32,160 bases of DNA from an uncultured Lentisphaeria bacterium (GTDB taxonomy: Bacteria > Verrucomicrobiota > Lentisphaeria > JABSQK01 > CAJWLW01): NCBI GenBank assembly GCA_913042885.1, contig CAJWLW010000020.1, positions 1 to 32,160 of the forward strand, written 5' to 3'. Below are positions 736-20,626 of this stretch, in pieces. The notes under the pieces were generated by a model. That model was given only the letters and a program-made list of their open reading frames with translations. It made no database searches and was not told where the DNA came from. Every line of letters starts with the position of its first letter. Position 1 is the stretch's first letter. Position numbers and translations under genes: made by a program.

Positions 736-891
736 TTTGGGTACTGCGCTGCACCCACTCATTGCAATGGTTAAAATCGGGTCGCTGTGGTAATGTCTTG
801 CAGTAGTTCAGAACGCCCACCAACTCTTCCCGGCGCTAACTGTCCGTTTCCCGGGATCGCAATACACACAAGGAAAGGAGACATTCCGCCG

Positions 892-2217
892 ATGCGAATC
901 AAACAACCACTGCTGACAGCGTGGTTCGTCATCATTACTCTGTCCACCGTTCCTGTTTATGCGGATTCCAGTTCGGCCGCAACGATCGGAAACCCATCCG
1001 CGCCCGCGGCACCGCTTACTCTCGACACGTTCCTGGCACTGGTGCGCCGGGAGAACCCGGTGCTGACCGCGGCACGGAGCGGCATCGACGTCGCCCGCGG
1101 CTGGCGCAGCCAGGCACGGTTACTGCCCAACCCTACGCTGGAAGTGGAAGTTGGGGACATGGCGACGGACAGATTTGGCGACTTGGGCGAGTCGGTCAAC
1201 ACATTCCTGCTCTCCCAGGAGTTCGTGACGGCTGACAAACGCAGGGCGATGACGGCAATCGCCGATACCGAGGTCACGATTTCGTCTCTCGAATACGAGG
1301 TGCTCGAACGCGAAATGCTGACTCACGGCAGACAGGCATTCTTCACATTGTTGGCGGCGCAGGAACGCGTGGCCGCCTTCGAACGGCTGCTCGACATCGC
1401 CCGGCGCGGTGCCGAGGCGAGCCGGCATCGCGTCGAGGCCGGCGATGCGTCGCCGGTTGACACCGTCCGTGCCGGGGTCGCCCTGAGCCAGGCCGTCATC
1501 GGCCACCGTCATGCCGGCGCTGCGGCGGCGAATGCCAACGTCGCGCTGCAACAGCTGACAGGTTGTTCCGATGGCGCACTGCCGCAGATCGGCTCCGCCA
1601 CGACGCTCTACGAGTTACCATCCGAGGCCGAGTCGGAAGCGTCGCTGCTGGCGGCGCTCGAACAGCATCCCGCTGCCAGGGCCCTGCAGGCCGCCGTGTC
1701 TCTGGCCGCGGGTGAGCTGACCCTGGCGCGCAAGGAACGGTGGCCGAACATCGAGGCCGGGTTCGGCATCGAGTCCGTACCGGACGAGAACGACGGACGC
1801 GACGAATCGTTCGTCATCGAGCTCAGCCTGCCACTGCCTGTTTTCGACCGTAATCAGGGCGCGATCGCAGCAGCCAAATCGGCTTATCGCCAGGCAGAAC
1901 TGCAGTACCGCGCGGGCCGCGTCCAGCTGACCACACAACTGCGGCAAGCCCTGCGCAATTATGTCGCGGCACGGCAATCGACAGAGACTTACCGGAGTGA
2001 GGTTGTGCCCGGCGCACAACGCGCCTTCGATCTGGTGAAACGTTCGTACGAAGCAGGAGAAATCAACCAACTCGAACTGCTCGATGCGCAGCAGAGTTTG
2101 ATCGAAGCGGAACTGGCATATATCGATAACCTGGCGGATCTGCGGCAAGCGCAGGCAGAACTCCAGGGCCTTACTTTCACGACCGCTGGAAACGGCACTA
2201 CGCAAAGGAGCGAATGA
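892..2217 (+). CDS. cusC: RND metal-efflux outer membrane factor (CusC/CzcC, TolC family)
   Basis: A 441-residue outer membrane channel of a tripartite heavy-metal efflux pump. The chosen ATG has AGGAAAGGAG about 11 nt upstream and gives a clean signal peptide (residues 1-24, cut after VYA). A more upstream in-frame start at 787 would bury the signal peptide behind 35 polar residues. There is no lipobox, unlike CusC. The mature protein is two halves of long alpha-helix typical of TolC-type channels. Family marks are LPNPTLEVEV near residues 78-87 and SLPLPVFDRNQG near 311-323, where CzcC-type proteins have LPLPVFDRN. It is first in the operon, and its stop overlaps the next start (ATGA), implying translational coupling to the adaptor. 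It should form the exit duct for metal ions; which metal cannot be read from this subunit. Confidence 0.9.
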   Translation: MRIKQPLLTAWFVIITLSTVPVYADSSSAATIGNPSAPAAPLTLDTFLALVRRENPVLTAARSGIDVARGWRSQARLLPNPTLEVEVGDMATDRFGDLGESVNTFLLSQEFVTADKRRAMTAIADTEVTISSLEYEVLEREMLTHGRQAFFTLLAAQERVAAFERLLDIARRGAEASRHRVEAGDASPVDTVRAGVALSQAVIGHRHAGAAAANANVALQQLTGCSDGALPQIGSATTLYELPSEAESEASLLAALEQHPAARALQAAVSLAAGELTLARKERWPNIEAGFGIESVPDENDGRDESFVIELSLPLPVFDRNQGAIAAAKSAYRQAELQYRAGRVQLTTQLRQALRNYVAARQSTETYRSEVVPGAQRAFDLVKRSYEAGEINQLELLDAQQSLIEAELAYIDNLADLRQAQAELQGLTFTTAGNGTTQRSE

Positions 2218-4109
2218 ACATGTCTGTTGCACACATACTTGGTAATCGCCGGAACGGCCTGCGCAAGACGGGAAGCGGTACAATGCTGACCGGCTGTTGC
2301 CTGTTGTTCTTTATCTGGCCAGGGTTTCCTCTACTCGAATCCGTGCTGGCGCCCCAGGCTCAGGCCGCTGACGAACGGCATGACGACCACGCGGGCCACG
2401 ATCATGGCGAGCATGGTGAGCGCCAAGGCCACGACAAAGACGAAGGCAGTGACGATCACGACGGGCACGACGAACACACAGGCCACGAGCAAGACGGCGG
2501 CATCCGTTTGACGCCCGAAATCATCGAGGCCACCGGTATCCGGGTGCGCGTCGCCGGACCGGGGACACTGGGAAAACGAATCAAACTGATCGGTGAGATA
2601 TCGTTCAACGAGAACACCTTTGCCCACATCGTGCCGGCTGCCGCCGGGGTCGTTCGCGAGGTCGCGGCCGACATCGGCGAGCGCGTGCAGGCCGGCGATG
2701 TACTGGCCATCCTCGACAGTCGCGAAGTCGGTGAAGCCGCATTGGAACACAGCGATGCACTGACCGCCTATGAACTTGCTGTCGCCGACTTCGAGCGCCA
2801 GAAAATGATCACTGCCAACACGCACAAGATGTTGGAGATCTTGAGTCGCGAGGCCGATCCACAGACAGTAGCCGATCTCGTGAGCGGCCTGAAAATCGGT
2901 GCCGCCAAAGCCGACGTGCTCGACGCGCTGACGACCCGGGATTTAGCCCAGGTCTCCGTCGCCATGGCCGAGAAGTTGTTCAATTACCAGCAACCGATCT
3001 ACGATAATACAGTCAAGATGCTGGAGCTTCTCGAGAGCACCTCGACGGCGGCTGAGGCACAGAAGACACTCGAACACCTCGATATCGGCGTAGCCAAGAA
3101 GGAGATCATCGAAGCACTTGCAGATGTAGAACTGGCCCGCGCCAATTTCAAGCGCCAGGAACAACTCCTGCAACAAGAAGTGGGTTCGGCGAAGGCCATG
3201 CAAGAGGCGCGACGTGATCTCGATACCGCTGTTTCCACGCACGATGCCCTGTTCGAACAGGTACGACTGGACGCGGAGCAGGTACACCTGGAAGCACAGC
3301 GCGAGTACCTGACGGCGAAACAGGAGGCGATAGCGGCGACCATCACCTATCCTGCGCTGCTCGAGCAGGTGGTTTTCGATGCCGATGTGGCGCTCCTGAA
3401 TGCACGGCAGACACACGGGCTGGCCGAACAACAACTGAAGATCTCTGTGGACAAACTCCGGGTCCTCGGCCTTTCCCACGATGCCGTGCAGAAACTGGCG
3501 GGCTCGGATCAGCCCATCACCTATCTGCCGGTCACAGCGCCCTTCGACGGGACAATCACCGAAAAGCACATCAGTCGGGGTGAATGGCTGGGCGAAGACT
3601 CCGACGCCTTCACGATTGCCGATTTGCGCACGGTGTGGGTGAACTTGAGTCTGACGCAGACGGACTTGATGTATGTGCACCTCGATCAGCCGGTGCGGGT
3701 TGCGGCTCGCCACGTCGATGCGACTGCAGCCGGCAAGGTGACTTACCTGTCACCGACCATCGACGAGTCCACCCGTACGGTTTTGGCACGCCTCGAGATT
3801 GATAACGCCAGTGGCGATTGGCGACCGGGGTTGTTCGTCGTGGCAGAGGTCGACTCGGGGGATGCCCCGGCCGCCGTACTGGTACCGAAGAATGCGGTGC
3901 AGATACTCGACGAGCAGGCAGTCGTGTTCATCGCAAATGGTCAAAGTTTCACGCCGCGTCCCGTGACCACGGGCCGGTCGGACAAGAAATATGTCGAGTT
4001 GCTGAGTGGGCTGTCGCCCGGCCAGCGTTACGTCGCCGAGGGCGCCTTCCAGCTCAAAGCCAAGATTACCATCAGCGGCCTCGGCTCACACGCCGGGCAC
4101 GGTCATTAG
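2214..4109 (+). CDS. cusB: RND metal-efflux periplasmic adaptor (CusB/CzcB family), His-rich with an expanded hairpin
   Basis: A 631-residue membrane-fusion protein linking the inner-membrane pump to the outer channel. The start at 2214 overlaps the previous stop. A second ATG at 2220 is better spaced (9 nt) from AAGGAG, so either is possible. A signal peptide spans about 24-52. Residues 56-91 hold ten histidines among Asp/Gly, and the C-terminus ends GSHAGHGH; both are probable metal-binding tails. A lipoyl-like half (VPAAAGVVREV) follows around 140-175. The helical hairpin is unusually long: a 63-residue block (about 202-264, starting NTHKMLE) is repeated at about 265-327 (starting NTVKMLE). 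The second lipoyl half (VTAPFDGTITEKHISRGEWL), beta-barrel and membrane-proximal domains follow. The length exceeds CusB (about 407) and CzcB (about 520) mainly because of the His tail and this duplication. Confidence 0.9.
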   Translation: MNMSVAHILGNRRNGLRKTGSGTMLTGCCLLFFIWPGFPLLESVLAPQAQAADERHDDHAGHDHGEHGERQGHDKDEGSDDHDGHDEHTGHEQDGGIRLTPEIIEATGIRVRVAGPGTLGKRIKLIGEISFNENTFAHIVPAAAGVVREVAADIGERVQAGDVLAILDSREVGEAALEHSDALTAYELAVADFERQKMITANTHKMLEILSREADPQTVADLVSGLKIGAAKADVLDALTTRDLAQVSVAMAEKLFNYQQPIYDNTVKMLELLESTSTAAEAQKTLEHLDIGVAKKEIIEALADVELARANFKRQEQLLQQEVGSAKAMQEARRDLDTAVSTHDALFEQVRLDAEQVHLEAQREYLTAKQEAIAATITYPALLEQVVFDADVALLNARQTHGLAEQQLKISVDKLRVLGLSHDAVQKLAGSDQPITYLPVTAPFDGTITEKHISRGEWLGEDSDAFTIADLRTVWVNLSLTQTDLMYVHLDQPVRVAARHVDATAAGKVTYLSPTIDESTRTVLARLEIDNASGDWRPGLFVVAEVDSGDAPAAVLVPKNAVQILDEQAVVFIANGQSFTPRPVTTGRSDKKYVELLSGLSPGQRYVAEGAFQLKAKITISGLGSHAGHGH

Positions 4110-4127
4110 TGCAGGGAGAACGGCAGC

Positions 4128-7100
4128 ATGATTGATAAAATTATCGAGTCATCTATCCGCCTACGCACACTCGTGGTCATCGTCGTTGTGGCGGTTATAG
4201 GGCTGGGGGCCTACGAGTATTGGAATATGCCCGTGGACGCGTTTCCGGACATCTCGCCCATCATGGTGCCGGTGTTCGCAGAGGCGCACGGCATGGCGCC
4301 GGAGGAGGTGGAACGCCTCATCACGTATCCCATCGAGGCAGTGATGAACGGCCTTCCTGGAGTTACGCAAATCAAATCCACTTCAGCTTTCGGCATGGCC
4401 GTGATCTACGTTTATTTCCGGGAGAATGTCGATATCTACTTCGCCCGGCAACTGGTGTCCGAGCGCCTGGCCGGCGCCATGAATGACCTCCCGGAAATGC
4501 ATGATCCACCCACGCTCGGTCCCATCTCAACCGGGCTCGGCCAGGTGTTTCTCTATTATCTGACACTGGCGCCCGGCACGGACACCGGCGACAAAGATCC
4601 GGACACCTACCTGCGCGAGATCAACGACTGGATCGTAAAATTCCAGCTGCGCACGGTGCCCGGTGTCACCGACATCCTCTCCATCGGCGGGTACGTATTG
4701 CAGTATCAGATCCAGATCGATCCCACTGCCCTGCGAAAGTACGCGGTGGACCTCGAATCCGTTGTCGAGTCGGTACAGGCGAACAACCGGAATGTCGGTG
4801 GCCAGTTCTTGGTGCTTGGCGCAGAGGAGTATTTGGTGCGCGGCATGGGGCTGCTGGGGTCCTTGGATCAGATACGAAGCATCAAGGTCAAGACGGTCGA
4901 CGGGGTACCCGTCACCATCGGTGATGTCGCTCGTGTGGTCTACGGCAAGGAGGTGCGGCGTGGCGTAGTCACCCGTAACGGCAAAGGCGAAGTGGTCTCC
5001 GGCATTGTCCTCAAGTTGTTCGGCGAAAATACGTCGGGGGTCATTGAGGGGCTCTACGAAAAGGTGAATGAAGTCCAGGCCAGTCTGCCGCCAGGTGTAA
5101 AGCTCGAACCCTACTACGAGCAGGCGAAACTTGTGGCGAAGGCCACCCATACCGTGAAAGAAGCGCTGTTGATAGGAATCGTGTTGGTGATCCTCACGTT
5201 GGCAGCCTTCCTCGGCAACGTCCGAAGCTCCTTCATCGTAATCGTCGGCTTGCCGTTCTCGACCTTTTTTGCGGTGATTTTTATGGGGCTCGAGGGGATC
5301 AGCGCCAACCTCATGTCTCTTGGGGGCATTGCCATTGCTATCGGCATGCTGAACGACGGTCCCATCGTGATGGTTGAAAACATCTACCGCCACCTCGGCG
5401 AGAAGCGAGATCACGACGAGCCGCGGGACAAGATTATCTGGGAGGCGTGCCGCGAGGTGGCTCGGCCCGTCCTGTTTTCGCTTGGGATCATCGTCATGGT
5501 ATTCCTGCCGATCTTCACCCTCGAGGGTGTGGAGGGCAAGATGTTCTCGCCGATGGCGTTTACCATCACCTTTGCCTTGCTCGGGTCGATGATCGCCACC
5601 TTGGTAGTGACCCCGGCCCTGGCCCATTACCTGATGCGGCACGAAGCGGAACAGGAGTTCATCGTGTTGCGCTGGCTCAAGGCCATTTACCGCCCGGCCC
5701 TGGAGTTCGCGCTGCGCTTCAAGACGGCGATGCTCGGTGGCGCTGTGGCAGCCTTTCTTGCTGCCGTAGCGGCGGTACCCTTTCTCGGCACCGAGTTCAT
5801 ACCGACACTCGAGGAGGGCAGTATTCTGATCGGCGTGACCATGGCGCCTTCCACCTCGCTCCAGCAGGGAACAGAAACCGTTCTCACGCTGGAGCGCGAA
5901 ATCATGGAATACCACGAGGTGAGCGAGGTCATTTCGCGCGTTGGCCGACCGGAAGCCGGGAGTCATCCGCATCCGGTCAACTATGCCGAGGTTCACATCG
6001 AGTTGAAACCGCAAGCGGAATGGAAGCGGTATAAGACCAAGGCCGAACTGGTGGAGGCACTCGCCACGGATTTAGGACGCTTCCCTGGTGTGCAGCTTAA
6101 TTTCACCCAACCGATCCAGAACGCCTTCGACGAACTGCTCTCCGGCATCCGCGCGCAGCTGGCAATAAAGATTTACGGCGAGGAACTTGACGAGTTGCGG
6201 GCGAAAGCGGACGAGATCAGCGCCGCGATCGAAGACGTCCCTGGCCTGGTGGACCTGTCGACGGAGCAGAGCTACGGCCAGCCACAGGTTCAGGTTTCCG
6301 TGGATCGCCAGGCCTGCGCCCGTTACGGTATCAACGCCGAACAGGTGCTCGAATTGGTTGAGCTCGCAGTCGGCGGAGAGGTCATCGACACCATCTATCT
6401 CGGCACGCGGCGCTTCAGCATTCACCTGCGCTACCAGGAACCCTATCGCGATGACACGGATGCCATCGAAAGACTCTTGGTTCAGACCACTGACGGCTCG
6501 GTCATCCCATTGGCGGAGGTAGCCACGGTCAGGAAGACATTCGGCGCGATCCAGATCAACCGTGAAAAGAACCAACGCCGCTGGATCGTGCAGGGCAATG
6601 TGCGCGGACGAGACCTGGGAAGTGTTGTGGCCGAAATCCGGAACCGAATCGCGGAACGGGTAACGTTTGCACCGGGATACTTCATCGAGTACGGCGGCCA
6701 GTTCGAGAACCAGCAACGCGCCATGGGGCGCCTGGCGATTATTGTGCCGCTCGTCTTGTTGGCGATATTCCTCCTGCTCTACATGGCTTTCGGCACTCTC
6801 CGTCACGCCCTTATTATCATCCTCAACGTACCACTGGCGCTTATCGGCGGCGTGGCAGGGCTGTTTATCATGGGAGAATATCTGTCGGTCCCGGCCTCGA
6901 TCGGTTTCATCGCGCTCTTCGGCATTGCGGTGCTGAACGGCAACGTGCTGGTGAGCTATTTCAACGACCTGATTGCGCGCGGAAAACCGCTGGGTGATGC
7001 CATCGTGGAGGGGGCGCTGTTGCGTCTCCGGCCGGTACTTATGACGGCCGTGGCGACCAACCTCGGCTTGCTGCCGCTGCTTCTGTCCAGCGGCATCGGT

Positions 7101-7238
7101 GCTGAGGTGCAGCGCCCCTTGGCAACGGTCGTAATATTTGGTCTGACGACCTCGACACTGCTGACGCTGTTCGTGATTCCAGTCGTCTACGGACTCGTCG
7201 AAGGCTGGTGGTCTCGGCGCTCCAATCAAGCGAACTGA
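4128..7238 (+). CDS. cusA: Heavy-metal RND inner-membrane pump (CusA/CzcA family, HME)
   Basis: A 1036-residue proton-driven exporter, full family length, with AGGGAGA 9 nt before the ATG. The N-terminal transmembrane helix (about 13-33) leads into the porter sequence MPVDAFPDISP, a hallmark of metal RND pumps. The TM4 proton-relay segment reads AIAIGMLNDGPIVMVEN, with D410 and E417 in place. The first Asp of the CzcA pattern is an Ala (404), as in monovalent CusA-type pumps. Asn409 sits where Val is usual. Two of the three pore methionines I recall for E. coli CusA appear replaced in the central cleft (Tyr and Glu at the aligned spots), and a SHPHP motif lies at 612-616. Placement as CusA-like is therefore tentative and the exported metal is unsure. 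Seventeen nucleotides after the stop comes the PII-like relic. Confidence 0.9.
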   Translation: MIDKIIESSIRLRTLVVIVVVAVIGLGAYEYWNMPVDAFPDISPIMVPVFAEAHGMAPEEVERLITYPIEAVMNGLPGVTQIKSTSAFGMAVIYVYFRENVDIYFARQLVSERLAGAMNDLPEMHDPPTLGPISTGLGQVFLYYLTLAPGTDTGDKDPDTYLREINDWIVKFQLRTVPGVTDILSIGGYVLQYQIQIDPTALRKYAVDLESVVESVQANNRNVGGQFLVLGAEEYLVRGMGLLGSLDQIRSIKVKTVDGVPVTIGDVARVVYGKEVRRGVVTRNGKGEVVSGIVLKLFGENTSGVIEGLYEKVNEVQASLPPGVKLEPYYEQAKLVAKATHTVKEALLIGIVLVILTLAAFLGNVRSSFIVIVGLPFSTFFAVIFMGLEGISANLMSLGGIAIAIGMLNDGPIVMVENIYRHLGEKRDHDEPRDKIIWEACREVARPVLFSLGIIVMVFLPIFTLEGVEGKMFSPMAFTITFALLGSMIATLVVTPALAHYLMRHEAEQEFIVLRWLKAIYRPALEFALRFKTAMLGGAVAAFLAAVAAVPFLGTEFIPTLEEGSILIGVTMAPSTSLQQGTETVLTLEREIMEYHEVSEVISRVGRPEAGSHPHPVNYAEVHIELKPQAEWKRYKTKAELVEALATDLGRFPGVQLNFTQPIQNAFDELLSGIRAQLAIKIYGEELDELRAKADEISAAIEDVPGLVDLSTEQSYGQPQVQVSVDRQACARYGINAEQVLELVELAVGGEVIDTIYLGTRRFSIHLRYQEPYRDDTDAIERLLVQTTDGSVIPLAEVATVRKTFGAIQINREKNQRRWIVQGNVRGRDLGSVVAEIRNRIAERVTFAPGYFIEYGGQFENQQRAMGRLAIIVPLVLLAIFLLLYMAFGTLRHALIIILNVPLALIGGVAGLFIMGEYLSVPASIGFIALFGIAVLNGNVLVSYFNDLIARGKPLGDAIVEGALLRLRPVLMTAVATNLGLLPLLLSSGIGAEVQRPLATVVIFGLTTSTLLTLFVIPVVYGLVEGWWSRRSNQAN

Positions 7239-13515: not shown

Positions 13516-13682
13516 AAAAGAAGTCTACTACCTTGGCTACTGTTGTGCCGCCTGGACCGGATTGTCTGTTCTCATGTTCGCATCCCAGCCCTTCCGTGCT
13601 ATCGTTCAAGGGTTCCGAAAGCAATCCCCTATCAGTCCGGTTGCGGACAAAAAGGGCTATTGATCCGGCACGAGAAGTCGAG

Positions 13683-13872
13683 GGTGCCAGGCTGAAGTAC
13701 TTTGCCGTGGCGGGACAGGATAACATCTCGGTTTTGCAGCACCTCAAGACGCTGCGTCAGACTGGGCTTTTTGGAGGCGTGCCAGGAGGGGAAGCGCCTG
13801 ATTTACTCCCTGGCTCGCAGTGACCTATCGGAGGAACTGGTGCTGCAATCCAAAGTTATCGCGGGAGCGTAG
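13683..13872 (+). pseudogene. Broken ArsR/SmtB-family metal-responsive regulator (C-terminal part)
   Basis: From about 13683 the frame reads LKYFAVAGQDNISVLQHLKTLRQTGL in two stretches, the recognition-helix region of ArsR-type winged-helix repressors (S---HLK-LR--GL). At a run of five Ts (13768-13772) one extra base shifts the frame. The next frame gives LEACQEGKRLIYSL and ARSDLSEELV, the beta-wing and last helix, to a TAG at 13870-13872. The N-terminal half is missing or scrambled. An intact protein (about 90-120 residues) would repress the efflux operon that begins 10 nt downstream and release it on metal binding. As found, it should be inactive, so the operon may be constitutive or controlled from elsewhere. 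Confidence 0.7.
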
Positions 13873-13881
13873 ACAGACGTG

Positions 13882-15225
13882 ATGTTCCGCTTGATTGCAA
13901 TAATGTCAACGCTTTTGCTGTGTCTCGGCTGTGCCAGCAACAGACGTGCGCCGATGACGGTTCTCGGCAATTCCGGGGCGGTTGCGCCAGTGCCTGCAAA
14001 TGCAGCATCGTCGCGCCTGGCCAAGGCGGAATTAACGCTGGTCGACCTGCTTGTCGTTGCTGCCGAACATCCGCGTGTGCAGGCTGCTCACTATCAGCTG
14101 CGGGCTACCGCCAGCGACGCCCGCCAGCGCCTGCTGTATCCAAACCCCGCGATTGGCCTGGAAGCGGAGGACGTTCCAGCTTCCGGTCTGGACATAGATG
14201 AAGGGGGTGATCGCCTGTTCCTAACCCAACCGCTGGTAATCGGGGATCGCTTGCGGACGGCCAGGCAGCTGGGCCAGGCCGAGACCGCGGCCAGTGCTCA
14301 ATCGGCCCAGGCGCTGCTGCATGATCTTCAGTCCCGCATCCGCAAGGTGTATGCTGAACTGGCATACCTGGCAATGCGGGAGCGGCAGTTAGCAGCAGTG
14401 ATGGAGGAAGTCGAGGCGGCACGCCGACTTTCTGAAGAGCGCGCTGAGGCGGGTGCGGTATCGCCTGCAGAAACACAGCGAATCCAGGTTGAGCACGAGC
14501 TGTCGAGTCAGGAGCGGGAAAGTGCACTGCGGCGCCAGGCCTCGGTGCGAGGGCACCTGGAAGCGCTCCTTGCACTGGACCGATTTCCACATGACCGCCT
14601 GAAACTGGTGCTGACTGAGCCGGAGCCTCCACCGACTTGGAGTCGTCTACGTACCGCACTTCTTGAGCATCACCCGCAACTGCAGCGACAGAGGCGGGCG
14701 GTCTCGGTGGCCGAGGCACGGGAGGAACACGAGAACGCCAAGCGTGTACCCGATTTGGATATCAACGTTGCCTACAGTCGCAACCATGCAAATGACGAAG
14801 ACTTTGCGGAGTTCGGAATTTCGTTGCCGCTACCTGTGTTCGATCGGCGACAGGGGCATATCGAGGCGGCTCGCAATCGAGCAGCAGCGAGTCGCTCGTT
14901 GGTATCCGCGCTTGAGCGGGAGTTACTTGCCGAGTTACAGGCTTGGTTGGCTCAGCTGGAGAACCGGCGTCGGGCGTTGCGACGCTACAACGAACACATT
15001 ATTCCCAAAGGCAATGCCTCCTATGCCCAGTCGACACACCGTTATCGCGCGGGAAAAGCCTCGTTACTCGATCTTCTTGACGCCCAGCGCACACAGGCGC
15101 GGATCAAGCAGAACCGGTTGCTTGTTCTCTATGAATTGAATCTGGCATGGGCGAATATCGAGAATCTCACTGGTTCCCCCGTTATGCACCTGCAAATACA
15201 ATCCAATGGAGAAGAAACACCATGA
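13882..15225 (+). CDS. czcC: RND metal-efflux outer membrane lipoprotein (CzcC-like, TolC family)
   Basis: A 447-residue outer membrane channel of the second pump; the ATG at 13882 follows a GTG at 13879. A hydrophobic leader ends CLGC, with C17 a probable lipidated cysteine (the lipobox is imperfect, with Cys rather than Leu at -3). Two TolC-type halves are visible: YPNPAIGLEAEDVP near residues 90-103 and ISLPLPVFDRRQGHIEAA near 312-329, the same LPLPVFDR signature as in operon 1. The last helices include SLLDLLDAQRTQARIKQNRLL. Sequence and length differ enough from the 892-2217 protein that it is not a recent copy. The stop overlaps the next start (ATGA), so it is coupled to the small Cys/His protein. 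Confidence 0.88.
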   Translation: MFRLIAIMSTLLLCLGCASNRRAPMTVLGNSGAVAPVPANAASSRLAKAELTLVDLLVVAAEHPRVQAAHYQLRATASDARQRLLYPNPAIGLEAEDVPASGLDIDEGGDRLFLTQPLVIGDRLRTARQLGQAETAASAQSAQALLHDLQSRIRKVYAELAYLAMRERQLAAVMEEVEAARRLSEERAEAGAVSPAETQRIQVEHELSSQERESALRRQASVRGHLEALLALDRFPHDRLKLVLTEPEPPPTWSRLRTALLEHHPQLQRQRRAVSVAEAREEHENAKRVPDLDINVAYSRNHANDEDFAEFGISLPLPVFDRRQGHIEAARNRAAASRSLVSALERELLAELQAWLAQLENRRRALRRYNEHIIPKGNASYAQSTHRYRAGKASLLDLLDAQRTQARIKQNRLLVLYELNLAWANIENLTGSPVMHLQIQSNGEETP

Positions 15226-15629
15226 AGAACAACCTCATGCTTGCCATCATCATTGTCGTGGTCGGAGCTGGCGCCGGCTTCGCCTACCTCAAGTGCGGCA
15301 AAAGTACTCCGTCATCACCTGCGCCGGCAACTCCTGGTCCCGGTGCGGCCAATGGTCACGTGCCTGGACACGAAACTACCGGAGAATGGTGTGCCGGGCA
15401 CCAGATCGCCGAGGCGGATTGCCCGTGGTGCAAGCCGTCGCTGATCGAATCGAAGGGCTTCTGCAAGGAACACGACGTGGCCGAAGCTCTGTGTACGGTT
15501 TGCAGTCCGGCTTTGATTGCCGGCTTCAAAGCCGAAAGGGACTGGTGTGCCGGGCACAAAATACCGGAATCACAATGCGCCGAATGCAAAGCGGGCAACC
15601 TCCCGCCGGACGAACGGGGTCCTAAATGA
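15222..15629 (+). CDS. Small membrane-anchored protein with three C-x2-H-x6-C-x2-C repeats
   Basis: A 135-residue protein overlapping both neighbours by 4 nt. Residues 5-20 form an uncleaved signal anchor, residues 26-50 a Pro/Ala/Gly linker, and the rest should face the periplasm. It contains three evenly spaced units, C57/H60/C67/C70, C81/H84/C91/C94 and C109/H112/C119/C122, each C-x2-H-x6-C-x2-C. The order of units and the linker (PALIAGFKAERDWC) match the N-terminal domain of the next protein (PALAAAFKAVDDWC), so the domain was duplicated between adjacent genes. Each unit has four potential thiol/imidazole ligands, so three bound metal ions per chain is a reasonable guess. Likely a periplasmic metal buffer or chaperone delivering to the pump. 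I do not recognise a named family, and whether the cysteines stay reduced there is open. Confidence 0.85.
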   Translation: MKNNLMLAIIIVVVGAGAGFAYLKCGKSTPSSPAPATPGPGAANGHVPGHETTGEWCAGHQIAEADCPWCKPSLIESKGFCKEHDVAEALCTVCSPALIAGFKAERDWCAGHKIPESQCAECKAGNLPPDERGPK

Positions 15630-17473
15630 CCCCCCGGCCCGTCAAAATCGGTCTTGCAGTCGTGTTGCTGGGCGTTGGCTTCGGCGCCATCGTTGCGGTG
15701 GATCGTCTGGGCTGGATCAACGGATCGGCGGCGGGCAACGACACGCAGTCGGCCGCTGCGCCCGCCTGTCCTCATGGCATGCCTGACGCGAAGTGCCCCT
15801 TCTGCGACGAATCTCTGATCGACAGTATGGGCTTCTGTCAGGGGCACAGTGTCCCCGAAGCACTGTGTACGTCTTGCTGGCCGGCACTCGCGGCGGCCTT
15901 CAAGGCTGTCGACGACTGGTGCGTCGGGCATTCACGCCCGGAATCCCAGTGCGAATTGTGCAATCCCGGCGCACTGTCCAAATTCGCACCCGTGGACGCC
16001 GTGGGTGCGGAGAGGCCGCAAGCGGCCACCGGATCGGTTCTGCCGCCGACGGAACCGTTATTGTCGGGTGAAGAGACGCCGCGGCATCTGCGCAACCCGA
16101 ATGTCACCTGCAACACGCAGAAGCTGCGCGTACAGTTCGCCACGCCTGAGATCGCCAAGGCTGCCGGGATCAAGGTGGAAAAGGTGACGGAACAGCCGGT
16201 CAGCCAGAGCGTTTCAGCGCCGGCCGAGTTGCACTACGATGCCAATCGCCATGCCCGGTTGAAGCCGCGCACCGGTGGAATCGTTCACGAGGTTAAGGCG
16301 GCGCTGGGCGACACGGTGGCAGCGGGACAGGTTCTGGCCGTTCTCGAAGCGGCGGAATTAAGTCAGCGCAAGGCCGAGTACCTACGTCTCTATCGCGAAG
16401 CGCAGGCTGCCGAGAAACTCGTGCGACAGCTCGAAGCGTGGCATCGGCGAATGAATGATATGGAGATCCGTCTGACTGGCAACAGTTACCTCGAAAGCCT
16501 GTCATTGGTGAAGCTCGCGGAAGAAAATTTCAATCGTGAAGAATCACTGATAGCGCGTGGGGTAACCTCGAAACGGGAGCTGATGGACGCGCAAAGCGCA
16601 ATGGTGCGGGCCAGGAATACGGTCTCTGAAAACGAGCGCAAGCTGAAGCTCTTCGGCATCGATTCTGAAACCTTGAAAAACCTTACGCCGGAGCAGATCG
16701 CCACGCTGGACGGCCAGGGCAGCACTTCCGAACAACCCGTACTTGAAGCGCAGCGATCGGTGTCAGTGCTGTCTGCACAGCGTCGCGCTGCCCACGACCA
16801 GCTGCGCGTACTTGGCCTCGACCCGGCCGCTATCCAAAAGGTCGTCGACGAGGAGGACACGTCGGGGCTGTTGGCGGTTACGGCCCCCTTCGCCGGTGTC
16901 ATCATTGATCGCCAGTGTACGCTGGGGGAAATGAAGACAGGTGACAACGTGCTGTTCGCCATCGCCGACATTTCTCTGATGTGGGCTATCCTTGATGTCA
17001 AGGAAGCGGATCTGCCCCGGATTCGCATGGGCCAATCGGCGATCCTGGACTTGGCCGGACTGCGTGGCCAGCGCTTCGCCGGAATGGTGACCTGGCTGAG
17101 TACGCAGGTCGACCGCCGGACAAGGACACTGAAAGTCCGAGTCCCCGTGGACAACCCCGATGGCTTGTTGCGCGCCGGCATGTACGGCAGCGCCGAGGTC
17201 ACTATTCGGGACCGTGCCAACTCCCTGATCGTGCCGCGGGAGGCGTTGCAGTGGGACGGGTGCTGCAACCTGGTCTTTGTTCGTCACTCCGATCAGCTGT
17301 ATGAGCCGCGCAAGGTAAAACTCGGCTACGAGACCGATCGTTTCTACCTGGTCGACAGCGGCTTGCGCGCCGGTGAGGAAGTCGTCACCACAGGCAGCTT
17401 CCTGATGAAGACGGAGATCATGAAAGGCAACATCGGCGCCGGCTGTTGTGAAGTGGAACCCGGCGTCGACTGA
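15626..17473 (+). CDS. czcB: RND metal-efflux periplasmic adaptor (CzcB-like) with N-terminal Cys/His triple-repeat domain
   Basis: A 615-residue adaptor whose ATG overlaps the previous stop. A membrane anchor (about 7-25) is followed by the Cys/His module: C48/H50/C57/C60 (first pair shortened to C-x-H), C71/H74/C81/C84 and C99/H102/C109/C112. A flexible linker (about 115-160) precedes the membrane-fusion core, with a lipoyl half at PRTGGIVHEVKAALGDTVAAG (two pieces, about 214-234) and a helical hairpin to about 400. The second lipoyl half (VTAPFAGVIIDRQCTLGE), a beta-barrel (MWAILDVKEADLPRIRMGQ) and a membrane-proximal domain follow. The C-terminus ends GAGCCEVEPG, adding a vicinal Cys pair; another Cys pair (GCCNLVF) lies near 547. 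Compared with about 520 residues for CzcB, the extra length is the metal-binding head. Confidence 0.9.
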   Translation: MTPRPVKIGLAVVLLGVGFGAIVAVDRLGWINGSAAGNDTQSAAAPACPHGMPDAKCPFCDESLIDSMGFCQGHSVPEALCTSCWPALAAAFKAVDDWCVGHSRPESQCELCNPGALSKFAPVDAVGAERPQAATGSVLPPTEPLLSGEETPRHLRNPNVTCNTQKLRVQFATPEIAKAAGIKVEKVTEQPVSQSVSAPAELHYDANRHARLKPRTGGIVHEVKAALGDTVAAGQVLAVLEAAELSQRKAEYLRLYREAQAAEKLVRQLEAWHRRMNDMEIRLTGNSYLESLSLVKLAEENFNREESLIARGVTSKRELMDAQSAMVRARNTVSENERKLKLFGIDSETLKNLTPEQIATLDGQGSTSEQPVLEAQRSVSVLSAQRRAAHDQLRVLGLDPAAIQKVVDEEDTSGLLAVTAPFAGVIIDRQCTLGEMKTGDNVLFAIADISLMWAILDVKEADLPRIRMGQSAILDLAGLRGQRFAGMVTWLSTQVDRRTRTLKVRVPVDNPDGLLRAGMYGSAEVTIRDRANSLIVPREALQWDGCCNLVFVRHSDQLYEPRKVKLGYETDRFYLVDSGLRAGEEVVTTGSFLMKTEIMKGNIGAGCCEVEPGVD

Positions 17474-17500
17474 GGCTTTTCCCGCGCTGAGGGGCAATAG

Positions 17501-20500
17501 ATGATCAACAAAGTTATTACCTGGTCGCTGGAACACCGATTGGTGGTCATTGCGCTGGCGCTGATCCTGGTGTTGACCGGCATCTTCGCCGTCCGGAATC
17601 TGCCAATTGATGCGTTCCCGGATACTACGCCGGTACAGGTGCAGATCAACACCACTGCCCCGGCTCTGTCGCCGTTAGAGATCGAACAGCAGATCACGTT
17701 TCCAGTTGAACAGGCCATCAGCGGCCTGCCGGGACTGGAGGTCGTTCGCTCGATTTCGAAGTTCGGGTTCTCCCAGGTGACGGTCGTCTTCGAGGATGGG
17801 ACGGGCATCTACTTTGCCCGCCAGTTGATCATGGAACGCTTACAGACGGTGGAGTTGCCGTCTGGCATCGCCGCACCAAAAATGGGACCGGTGGCGACCG
17901 GTCTCGGCGAGGTCTTCCATTACGTGCTCAGTAGCCAGACCATGAGCCTCGAGGAACTGACCACGTTGCATGATTGGGTAATCAAGCCGCGGCTGAGTGC
18001 TGTGCCGGGCGTGGCAGAGATCAACACCTGGGGCGGCGAACTGCGTCAGTATCATGTGCTGGTGGATGTCGCGGCACTGCTCAAGTACGACTTGACCATG
18101 GACGATCTCGTCTTTGCCCTGGAGCGCAACAATCTGACAGTGGGCGGTGGCAACATCGTACAGGCCGGTGAGCTGCACCTCGTCCGTGGCGTCAGCCTGA
18201 CCACCACGAAGGCGGAAATCGGCAACATCGTCATTACTGCCCACGACGGCGTCCCTGTGCTGGTGCGAGATGTGGCGGAGGTCGCGATCGGTCACGAGAT
18301 TCGCCGGGGTTCGGCCACCGCCAATGGCCAGGGAGAGGTCGTCCTCGGCCTGGGCTTCATGCTCATGGGAGAGAACAGCCATGAGGTCACACGGCGCCTG
18401 AAGTCGCGACTTGAGGCAATCCGACCCACGCTGCCGGAAGCAGTCGAGATTAAGATCGTCTACCAGCGCACGACGTTGGTGAATCAGGTCATCGACACCG
18501 TCAAGGAGAATCTATTCGAAGGTGCGATCCTGGTGGTCGCTGTACTCTTCATGTTCCTGGGCAACCTGAGGGCCGGCCTGATCGTTGCCTTGGCTATCCC
18601 GCTTTCGATGCTCTGTGCCTTCAACGGCATGCTGCGCTTCGGTGTCGCCGGCAGCCTGATGAGCCTGGGCGCCATCGACTTCGGACTAATTGTCGACAGC
18701 TCCGTCATTATGGTCGAGAACAGTGTGCGCCGGCTCGGCGACCGGGACGACCAACGTTCCGTGCAGGACATCGTTCGTGACGCCTCGATCGAAGTGCGCC
18801 GCGCAACGATGTACGGTGAACTGATCATCATGATCGTCTATCTGCCTATCCTGACCCTGGAGGGCATCGAAGGTAAACTGTTCCGGCCCATGGCGCTGAC
18901 GGTCATTTTCGCCTTGCTCGGTTCACTGGTTCTGTCATTGACGCTGATGCCGGTGCTGACCAGCATTTTCTTGCGCAAGGGTGTGGAAAAACGCCCGAAC
19001 TGGCTGGTGCGCGGTGCGCAGTGGTGTTACCGGCCGCTCCTGCGCCTGGCGCTTCGCTGGCGGCTGGCGTTCGTTGGCGGGGCGATCATCCTGCTGATTG
19101 GCAGCATCGTATTAAGCCAGCGGCTTGGCTCGGAGTTCGTGCCGAGGCTCTCGGAAATGGGTATCGTCATCAACACCGTCCGGCTGGCTGGTGTCTCCTT
19201 GGAGGAATCCACCCGCTACGGCTCCCACCTGGAGCGCTTCATCCTTGACAAGTTTCCCGATGAAGTCAAGGATGTCTGGGTGCGAACCGGCACCGCAGCG
19301 GTCGCAACCGATCCCATGGGCATTGAGCTGTCCGACGTTTTCATTACGCTCACCCCACGCGACCAATGGACACGTGCGCACAATCAAACCGAACTCACCG
19401 CGATAATGCGCCGGGATCTCGATGGTTTACCGGGAATGCGCATGATCTTCACCCAGCCGATCGAAATGCGCGTCAACGAAATGGTTGCGGGCATTCGCTC
19501 TGATCTCGGCATCAAGCTCTTTGGCGATGACCTGGACGTCTTGGGGGAGAAAGCCGCAGAAGTTGAGGCCGTGCTGAACACCATCCCCGGTGCTGCCGAT
19601 ATTTATACGGAACAAATCACCGGTCAACCGTCCCTGGAGATAACCGTCGATCAGCAGGCGATTGCGCGGCACGGGGTACCGGCTCGCCACGTGCTCGAAA
19701 TTGTCGAAGCGATCGGCGGCCGTAAAGTTGGGGAAGTGCGGGAGGATCAGCGGCGATTCGACCTCGTCGTGCGCTTGGCCGAGCCCTACCAGCGGGACGC
19801 TGTTGCCATCGGCCGTATCCTGGTGCCGACCGAGAGCGGCGAACGCATTCCACTCGATCAACTGGCCGACATTCGGCATGTCGAAGGGCCCTCCACCATC
19901 ACCCGCGAATGGCAGCGCCGACGCATCGTCATCCAATGCAACGTCAGCGACCGCGACATCGGCGGTTTCGTGGAGGAGGTGCAACGACGTCTCGCCGCCG
20001 ACGTGGCCTTGCCGAACGGCTATTACCTGGCGTATGGCGGCCAATTTGAAAACATCGAGCGTGCCCAGCAACGTCTGCTGATCGTCGTCCCCTTGGCCTT
20101 GGCGCTTATTCTCTTCTTGCTCTACACCTCTATGGGGACGGTGCGCGAGTCCCTGATTATTTTTACCGGGGCGCCCTTTGCGGCCATGGGCGGCATTCTG
20201 GCCCTGTGGCTGCGGGACATGCCATTCACCATCTCCGCGGGCGTCGGGTTCGTGGCGGTTTCCGGCGTTGCCATGCTCAATGGCCTGGTCATGATGTCCA
20301 CGATCAACCAGCTCCAGGAAAAGGGCATACCGCTCAACGACGCCATCGAGAAAAGCGCGCTCATGCGCCTGCGTCCCGTCCTCATGACTGCTCTCGTCGC
20401 CGGGCTCGGCTTTGTGCCGATGGCGCTCAATACGGGCATCGGAGCGGAGGTGCAGCGTCCGCTCGCGACCGTCGTTATCGGCGGCGTCATTACCGACAAC

Positions 20501-20626
20501 CTGTTGACGCTGCTGGTGCTCCCAGCCCTCTGCTCGCTCTTCGGACGCAAGACCTCCCAGGTCGTCGACGCGAAGCGGGCCAGTGAACTGAAGCTCGCAG
20601 GCATTAGCGACGCAGCGCAGAATTGA
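17501..20626 (+). CDS. czcA: Heavy-metal RND inner-membrane pump (CzcA-like, HME)
   Basis: A 1041-residue proton-driven metal exporter with GAGGGG 8 nt before the ATG. After the first transmembrane helix comes LPIDAFPDTTPVQVQINT, typical of CzcA-type pumps. TM4 reads GAIDFGLIVDSSVIMVEN: D393, D399 and E406 reproduce the spacing of the three acidic residues known as essential in Cupriavidus CzcA (D402, D408, E415). This places it with divalent-cation exporters (Zn, Co, Cd or Ni) rather than CusA-type Cu/Ag pumps. The central cleft motif ATDPMGIELSD and FTQPIEMRVNEMVAGIRSD also follow the CzcA pattern. It is last in the operon; the 111 bp to the 55-bp repeat hold no clear terminator. The C-terminal tail after TM12 is short and charged. 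Confidence 0.92.
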   Translation: MINKVITWSLEHRLVVIALALILVLTGIFAVRNLPIDAFPDTTPVQVQINTTAPALSPLEIEQQITFPVEQAISGLPGLEVVRSISKFGFSQVTVVFEDGTGIYFARQLIMERLQTVELPSGIAAPKMGPVATGLGEVFHYVLSSQTMSLEELTTLHDWVIKPRLSAVPGVAEINTWGGELRQYHVLVDVAALLKYDLTMDDLVFALERNNLTVGGGNIVQAGELHLVRGVSLTTTKAEIGNIVITAHDGVPVLVRDVAEVAIGHEIRRGSATANGQGEVVLGLGFMLMGENSHEVTRRLKSRLEAIRPTLPEAVEIKIVYQRTTLVNQVIDTVKENLFEGAILVVAVLFMFLGNLRAGLIVALAIPLSMLCAFNGMLRFGVAGSLMSLGAIDFGLIVDSSVIMVENSVRRLGDRDDQRSVQDIVRDASIEVRRATMYGELIIMIVYLPILTLEGIEGKLFRPMALTVIFALLGSLVLSLTLMPVLTSIFLRKGVEKRPNWLVRGAQWCYRPLLRLALRWRLAFVGGAIILLIGSIVLSQRLGSEFVPRLSEMGIVINTVRLAGVSLEESTRYGSHLERFILDKFPDEVKDVWVRTGTAAVATDPMGIELSDVFITLTPRDQWTRAHNQTELTAIMRRDLDGLPGMRMIFTQPIEMRVNEMVAGIRSDLGIKLFGDDLDVLGEKAAEVEAVLNTIPGAADIYTEQITGQPSLEITVDQQAIARHGVPARHVLEIVEAIGGRKVGEVREDQRRFDLVVRLAEPYQRDAVAIGRILVPTESGERIPLDQLADIRHVEGPSTITREWQRRRIVIQCNVSDRDIGGFVEEVQRRLAADVALPNGYYLAYGGQFENIERAQQRLLIVVPLALALILFLLYTSMGTVRESLIIFTGAPFAAMGGILALWLRDMPFTISAGVGFVAVSGVAMLNGLVMMSTINQLQEKGIPLNDAIEKSALMRLRPVLMTALVAGLGFVPMALNTGIGAEVQRPLATVVIGGVITDNLLTLLVLPALCSLFGRKTSQVVDAKRASELKLAGISDAAQN

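Follow-up and report, generated by a model that had tools for sequence, protein, structure and literature searches.

An unnamed Cys/His repeat, stand-alone and fused to an efflux adaptor, as a candidate metal-capture module in a putative heavy-metal exporter of an uncultured Lentisphaeria bacterium

We analyzed 32,160 nucleotides of DNA from an uncultured Lentisphaeria bacterium (contig CAJWLW010000020.1 of GenBank assembly GCA_913042885.1, positions 1 to 32,160 of the forward strand); this whole stretch is "the window" below. Our subject is a repeat of three cysteines and one histidine (C3H) that occurs in a small protein and again near the N terminus of the adaptor encoded next to it. Both genes belong to an operon-like run (13879-20626) that would encode a tripartite heavy-metal exporter: an outer-membrane channel, the small protein, the adaptor, and a ZneA-like pump of the heavy-metal efflux, resistance-nodulation-division (HME-RND) type. 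Taken whole, the explanation of which this forms a part seems to us reasonably likely. The features of the run are as follows, with the basis for each in parentheses.

13879..15225, + strand: outer-membrane efflux protein of the TolC/CzcC type, first gene of the operon (Pfam OEP, 2.6e-31)
15222..15629, + strand: stand-alone array protein of 135 amino acids (P0001), with a predicted N-terminal membrane helix at residues 2-25 and three C3H units (translation, model)
15390..15431, + strand: unit 1 of the small protein, residues 57-70 (translation)
15462..15503, + strand: unit 2 of the small protein, residues 81-94 (translation)
15546..15587, + strand: unit 3 of the small protein, residues 109-122 (translation)
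15626..17473, + strand: HME-RND periplasmic adaptor of the CzcB/ZneB type, 615 amino acids (P0002), with an N-terminal array (HlyD_D23, RND_mfp, ZneB)
15767..15961, + strand: adaptor array, residues 48-112, three units (translation, AlphaFold model)
16109..16111, + strand: adaptor Cys162, conserved in all 56 aligned array adaptors (alignment)
17261..17266, + strand: adaptor Cys546-Cys547 (WDGCC), conserved in 55 and 56 of the 56, respectively (alignment)
17444..17449, + strand: adaptor Cys607-Cys608 (GAGCC) in the C-terminal tail, conserved in 56 and 55 of the 56, respectively (alignment)
17501..20626, + strand: CzcA/ZneA-type HME-RND pump with E137, D393, D399, D604, D612, and E660 (TIGR00914; ZneA is the best PDB match)

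The small gene overlaps the adaptor gene by 4 bases and lies between the channel and adaptor genes, which is the position of cusF. Longer in-frame starts are present (15147), and most relatives in our alignment start at the equivalent of 15222. An earlier, sequence-only reading of this DNA had described a membrane-tethered small protein with three evenly spaced Cys/His quartets. All three quartets are exact C-x2-H-x6-C-x2-C units (C57/H60/C67/C70, C81/H84/C91/C94, and C109/H112/C119/C122), and the hydrophobic N-terminal stretch that precedes them is predicted to be a membrane helix. The same reading gave the adaptor the same three units. Three units do follow the adaptor's helix (residues 48-60, 71-84, and 99-112), but the first is C-x1-H-x6-C-x2-C, so the strict form holds for two of the three. 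Successive units are spaced by 24 and 28 residues in the small protein and by 23 and 28 in the adaptor. When we shuffled the residues of the small protein 100,000 times, two or more strict units never arose and one unit arose in 142 shuffles, so its units are not due to chance. The AlphaFold models are confident over most of both arrays (block means of 92-96 for residues 61-120 of the small protein; predicted local distance difference test scores of 90-94 over residues 51-110 of the adaptor).

A protein search with P0001 returned 104 relatives, which have three units (83 proteins), six (14), five (2), two (4), or one (1). Of these, 103 carry no precomputed Pfam domain, and nearly all of the ones that have a name at their source are called "hypothetical protein". 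Exactly nine cysteines are present in 59 of the 83 three-unit stand-alone proteins, and because nine is an odd number, full disulfide pairing within one chain is impossible in these. We aligned P0001 with 46 of the 104 relatives (alignment A1; 109-153 amino acids, chosen by hand, of which one or two may be adaptor fragments), and each ligand is kept in 46 or 47 of the 47 short proteins. In the corresponding alignment of P0002 with 55 of the 126 adaptors P0110-P0235 (A2; also chosen by hand, and all with an array), the 12 array ligands are invariant (56 of 56).

The profile drawn from 674 unique strict units reads C-[AG]-[EG]-H-G-[VIL]-[PA]-E-[SA]-x-C-x-x-C-N-P-x-L, with the Cys and His fixed by selection. 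The three positions of the triplet differ in signature: CPWC or CPFC in unit 1, EALC in unit 2, and PESQC in unit 3. In the six-unit forms the entire triplet occurs twice, at spacings of 23-24, 28, 37-44, 23-24, and 28. P0015-P0027, except P0018 and P0026, are mostly a six-unit group with C-x1-H first units; P0016 starts like a lipoprotein and not with a membrane helix. In P0006, a metagenome relative with 94% identity to the small protein, two of the three units are missing ligands, through either sequencing error or decay. A tree of stand-alone and adaptor modules (293 rows, 66 columns) has 26 changes of label, at least six of them forced by well-supported branches and with many forks unresolved. 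Judged by nearest rows, the two modules in the window each group with their own kind.

The earlier reader's statement of knowing no named domain with this signature agrees with our Pfam and NCBIfam scans. For P0001, P0002, and ten relatives, no Pfam family, zinc fingers included, scored above its cut-off over the array, and nothing in NCBIfam did so on P0001 or on the array of P0002. The Pfam family zf-B_box_Trim66 showed a weak motif likeness (E = 0.13, far under the cut-off), which we take as convergence or chance; the animal B-box is a eukaryotic family with a ligand pattern different from that of the array. PF26237, a precomputed label on P0080, was absent when we rescanned that protein with Pfam. 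A PDB sequence search with P0001 found no relative (its single match, at E = 0.035, is weak and unrelated), and Foldseek and VIA-align found no PDB match for the AlphaFold model of the small protein, which is unsurprising for a fold with so little secondary structure. As for homology to CusF, P0001 gave no Pfam or NCBIfam family above cut-off and no PDB match; no direct alignment of P0001 with CusF was made. Our searches of an open-access library also brought up no title or abstract opening on the repeat, although reports on it may be in print.

The repeat is tightly linked to HME-RND loci. We scanned the A1 profile against one genome per species, found 158 places that encode a relative, and collected the best 80 into 79 loci. 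A recognizable adaptor and an RND pump are present in 77 of these, and the other two (L006 and L029) stop at contig edges. This is in line with the sequence-only reading, which had placed the array beside a CzcA-type pump and proposed its co-occurrence with HME-RND adaptors as a check. The adaptor itself carries at least two units in 72 of the 79 loci (two units in 11, three in 28, four in 11, five in 8, six in 9, eight in 4, and nine in 1). An automatic count, which misses some overlapping frames (those of L001 included), finds a separate small array protein in 25 of the 79 loci, 18 of them alongside an array adaptor. Where both are seen, the small gene usually precedes the adaptor gene; it lies between the channel and adaptor genes in 9 of the 79 loci, immediately precedes the adaptor gene in others, and follows the pump in two. 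In one planctomycete genome (L026/L190), an eight-unit array falls in one frame and the adaptor body in another that overlaps it. The titles of the locus records name Planctomycetota, Lentisphaeria, Acidobacteriota/Holophagae, Myxococcales, Zixibacteria, Calditrichaeota, Cloacimonadota, and others. In whole genomes, the A1 profile was found in 38 of 199 from the phylum of a Planctomycetaceae genome (G003) and in 5 of 149 from the phylum of Acanthopleuribacter (G004).

The body of the adaptor is of a familiar class. It matches HlyD_D23 in Pfam (4.6e-46; 157.2 against a cut-off of 30) and RND_mfp in NCBIfam (TIGR01730; 164.6 bits against 94.9), and it falls under the cut-offs of the narrower CzcB, IhpB, and CusB models of NCBIfam. 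Its gene adjoins those of a TIGR00914 pump and an OEP channel, as expected for an HME-RND adaptor, and its best PDB match is ZneB, both by sequence and by model. Beyond the array, cysteines 162, 546, 547, 607, and 608 are kept, give or take one row, in the 56 aligned array adaptors. Adaptors start at the inner membrane, extend outward, and return to it (PMC4446572), and Cys546/547 lie within the region that aligns to the C-terminal half of ZneB. Because of these two points, the array probably lies near the Cys pairs, and both near the pump.

The Cys pairs co-occur with the array. We drew 40 pump regions from the phylum of Enhygromyxa (which we treat as Myxococcota) and another 40 from the phylum of a Planctomycetaceae genome, taking them down the ranking and skipping matches with little upstream sequence; six of the 80 had no countable adaptor and were dropped. 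Among the remaining 74 adaptors that adjoin HME pumps, from two phyla, a Cys pair is present in 8 of 14 with an array and in 1 of 60 without (Fisher p = 1.6e-6). In the Myxococcota half the counts are 5 of 7 and 0 of 31 (a first pass counted 40 adaptors there rather than 38, with identical array and Cys-pair counts). The single array-less adaptor with a Cys pair (L183) has one unit, plus a separate small array gene. In the set of 79 loci, at least one Cys pair is present in 63 of the 72 array adaptors, and both pairs are present in 45. We also searched with the C-terminal part of the adaptor: among the 120 matches listed of 354, 107 of the 108 full-length adaptors have at least one unit and 105 have at least two. 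That query itself holds the Cys pairs, and the pump-drawn sample is the fairer test.

The pump scores 1192.7 bits against TIGR00914 (cut-off 701.45), and its best solved relative is ZneA (672.7 bits, versus 591.3 for CusA). As we read the printed alignment, E137, D604, D612, and E660 align with E136, D602, E610, and D658 of ZneA; these are matched by position and not as established zinc ligands. D654 of ZneA, which we take to be a ligand, aligns with a methionine. The four acidic positions are kept in 68 of 68 array pumps, including that of the window, versus 27 of 38 others, and D393, in the fourth transmembrane segment (TM4), is kept in 66 of 68 versus 25 of 38. With acidic residues at the aligned ZneA positions and DFG..D in TM4, the pump falls with the divalent (ZneA/CzcA) type, which points to divalent ions as likely substrates and picks out no single ion. 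Other pump columns separate array pumps from the rest, probably through kinship, and we did not use them.

We scanned 99 of the 184 neighboring proteins listed and found P-type ATPase domains (5), ArsR (3), YHS (3), TetR (2), and P-II (2). Genes for metal regulators lie by the operon in four loci (ArsR above the cut-off in L004, L009, and L020; MerR-like in L064). Residues 8-101 of the L009 ArsR align with CadC (1u2w), better with Lmo1102, and over shorter stretches with SmtB, PagR, and others; NCBIfam labels it ArsR/SmtB-type and gives no metal. For the L064 protein, the top NCBIfam models are zinc-responsive, MerR, and CadR, all under cut-off, and MerR and CadR are best in PDB. A search of 72,556 plasmid records returned one match, pK2D_1 from a planctomycete isolate, where genes annotated as cadA (a cadmium ATPase), thioredoxin, and czcD lie beside the operon, farther downstream. 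Its array protein has two units and a lipobox-like start and is encoded directly after czcB-czcA; its adaptor has one clear unit plus a WEGCC pair. These few regulator and plasmid cases suggest Cd/Zn-type ions.

Some further neighbors are observations in their own right. The thioredoxin-like protein of pK2D_1 (L220:12235-12681) has a lipobox-like start and may keep periplasmic thiols reduced. Just 5' of many array operons lies a gene for a second unnamed small Cys-rich protein, apparently secreted, which often has an RPPR-like or LLI/LLV end (L035:7042-7494, L037:7236-7724, L066:7279-7800, L075:1872-2318, L016:7369-7719, L053:5856-6344, and others); it matched no Pfam family above cut-off (ten scanned) and nothing in NCBIfam (six scanned). 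In the window, two overlapping frames 5' of the channel gene (13533-13872) resemble, on visual inspection, the remains of an ArsR-type regulator, and separate pieces of these frames had no match in Pfam. A similar ArsR-like remnant precedes the L001 operon. The window also holds a second HME-RND system (787-7238). Its adaptor (2214-4109) has no Cys array and has a His/Asp-rich N-terminal stretch, and its pump has no DFG motif in TM4. Two different N-terminal metal-capture chemistries would then lie next to each other in the window.

With moderate confidence, we read the C3H repeat as a metallochaperone and an adaptor-fused capture array for Zn/Cd-type ions. Each unit would probably hold one thiophilic divalent ion, for example Zn2+ or Cd2+, in a tetrahedral site of three Cys and one His. 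That unit numbers vary, with odd numbers included, suggests that a unit could bind on its own. The stand-alone protein, anchored by its N-terminal helix, would gather periplasmic ions and, through ligand exchange, hand them to the corresponding array at the adaptor N terminus, near the inner membrane and beside the pump. Cys162, Cys546/547, and Cys607/608 of the adaptor would then be a final thiol stop ahead of the acidic site of the pump. Metal binding, the identity of the metal, the direction of transfer, one site per unit, and the six sites that the sequence-only reading offered for the pair are all inferred; the proposed hand-over to the adaptor gains support from gene order, the fusion, the pump type, and the few neighboring regulators. 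The sequence-only reading had spoken of a metal sponge, and because 72 of 79 loci have an adaptor with the array built in, chaperone or capture array seems the apter description. A fuller scheme is more speculative, and we hold it only tentatively: a thiol relay from the small C3H array to the adaptor C3H array, to Cys162, 546/547, and 607/608 at the pump face, and on to the acidic site, with array length (2-9 units) tuning capacity, in a separate and widespread HME-RND class of Planctomycetota, Lentisphaerota, Myxococcota, Zixibacteria, and others.

Several observations weigh against the chaperone and capture reading. By the automatic count (which misses some small genes, that of L001 included), 54 of the 79 loci have no separate small array gene, and hence the chaperone looks dispensable. 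No Cys-pair motif is found in 6 of the 14 array adaptors of the pump-drawn sample or in 9 of the 72 in the 79-locus set, so the last relay step is not universal; and the co-occurrence is weak in the Planctomycetota half (3 of 7 versus 1 of 29, p = 0.018). The acidic pump residues do not single out array systems, as 27 of 38 pumps without an array have them too. Most neighbors give no metal hint (most of the 74 neighbor families listed have one member each), and no regulator reached the cut-off of any metal-specific NCBIfam model. No solved structure like the array was found in PDB by sequence or by fold, and periplasmic thiols may be oxidized.

Other explanations account for parts of these data. 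The units might be structural zinc modules, in which the metal does no more than stabilize the fold and the arrays dock the small protein to the adaptor or assemble the adaptor ring. The strong conservation of non-ligand positions (P/A-E-S/A within the unit; G79, F102, D107, and W108, among others) and the confident small fold from AlphaFold would suit such modules. However, a generic zinc structure would be found with metal exporters in 77 of 79 loci only by coincidence, and a count of 2-9 units per adaptor fits a capture array more easily than it fits an interface that is fixed; we consider this explanation unlikely. Quite unlikely, too, is a periplasmic buffer or sensor, in which the array sequesters ions, or gates the adaptor allosterically when loaded, and hands nothing to the pump. 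The array is membrane-tethered and multi-site, and in five loci the adaptor lacks two units of its own (L023, L026, L041, L047, and L076, although L026 and L076 look frame-broken), as a buffer or sensor would allow, whereas the fusion in 72 of 79 loci and the co-occurring Cys pairs favor a path to the pump.

That the cysteines form a redox switch or a disulfide scaffold, with no metal site, is very improbable: each unit combines three Cys with one conserved His, and the nine cysteines of most three-unit proteins (59 of 83) speak against it, even though the location is probably periplasmic and the pK2D_1 cluster includes a gene for a thioredoxin-like protein that has a lipobox-like start. We give the least credence of all to a diverged HMBD (PF19335), the known CPMH..CPxCGM metal-binding domain of CusB-like adaptors and, of the short CxxH/CxxC domains known there, the one nearest to the array. 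Both domains are short, have CxxH followed by CPxC, and occur on HME adaptors, and a local hhalign comparison gave a probability of 74%, over 14 columns in the second half only; end to end, the probability was 0.8%. The array stays below the Pfam gathering score, while the HMBD model itself matches in 9 of the 10 genomes searched. The array also departs from the CxMH-x10-CxxCGM pattern: it has x6 spacing and no GM motif, versus H-x10-C in 27 of 28 HMBD copies that we extracted (pattern-selected, some from overlapping loci). In the pump-drawn sample, HMBD occurs in 4 of the 60 array-less adaptors and 0 of the 14 array adaptors, and none of the 74 has both domains.

To our knowledge, accounts of divalent HME-RND pumps usually mention no dedicated chaperone, whereas the copper pump has CusF. 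A widespread unnamed domain that is both stand-alone and fused would offer a clean test of whether divalent pumps are fed by periplasmic ligand exchange. The repeat family, which is widespread and easily tested, deserves a name, as its relatives are mostly unannotated. Among solved structures, the pump and the adaptor body are nearest to ZneA and ZneB of the ZneCAB system of Cupriavidus metallidurans; we know of no Cys/His array on ZneB. ZneB binds zinc between its barrel and membrane-proximal domains (PMC4446572).

The CusCFBA system also has a small protein encoded in the same operon, in the order C-F-B-A by the operon's name. CusF is a small periplasmic metal-binding protein, and the N-terminal part of the adaptor CusB also binds metal, which it receives from CusF (PMC4446572). 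CusF has a beta-barrel fold, and clusters of methionines serve Cu(I)/Ag(I) along the Cus path (PMC4446572); in contrast, the array system has tandem Cys3His units, with predicted binding, and a ZneA-like, divalent-type pump. SilB offers a parallel in layout, in that one CusF-like domain occurs both stand-alone and fused to the adaptor (PMC4446572). The SilB fusion is at the C terminus, the other end of the adaptor from the array, and our PDB search with P0001 did not return the SilB fragment present there. A chaperone plus a fused domain is not new in kind, having been described for CusF and SilB (PMC4446572). The domain, its repeat arrays, the link to a ZneA-like pump, and the added Cys pairs are absent from the libraries we searched and from the portions consulted of PMC8277102, PMC4446572, PMC7726332, and PMC7060636, and as far as these show, they appear to be what this system adds to the known designs.

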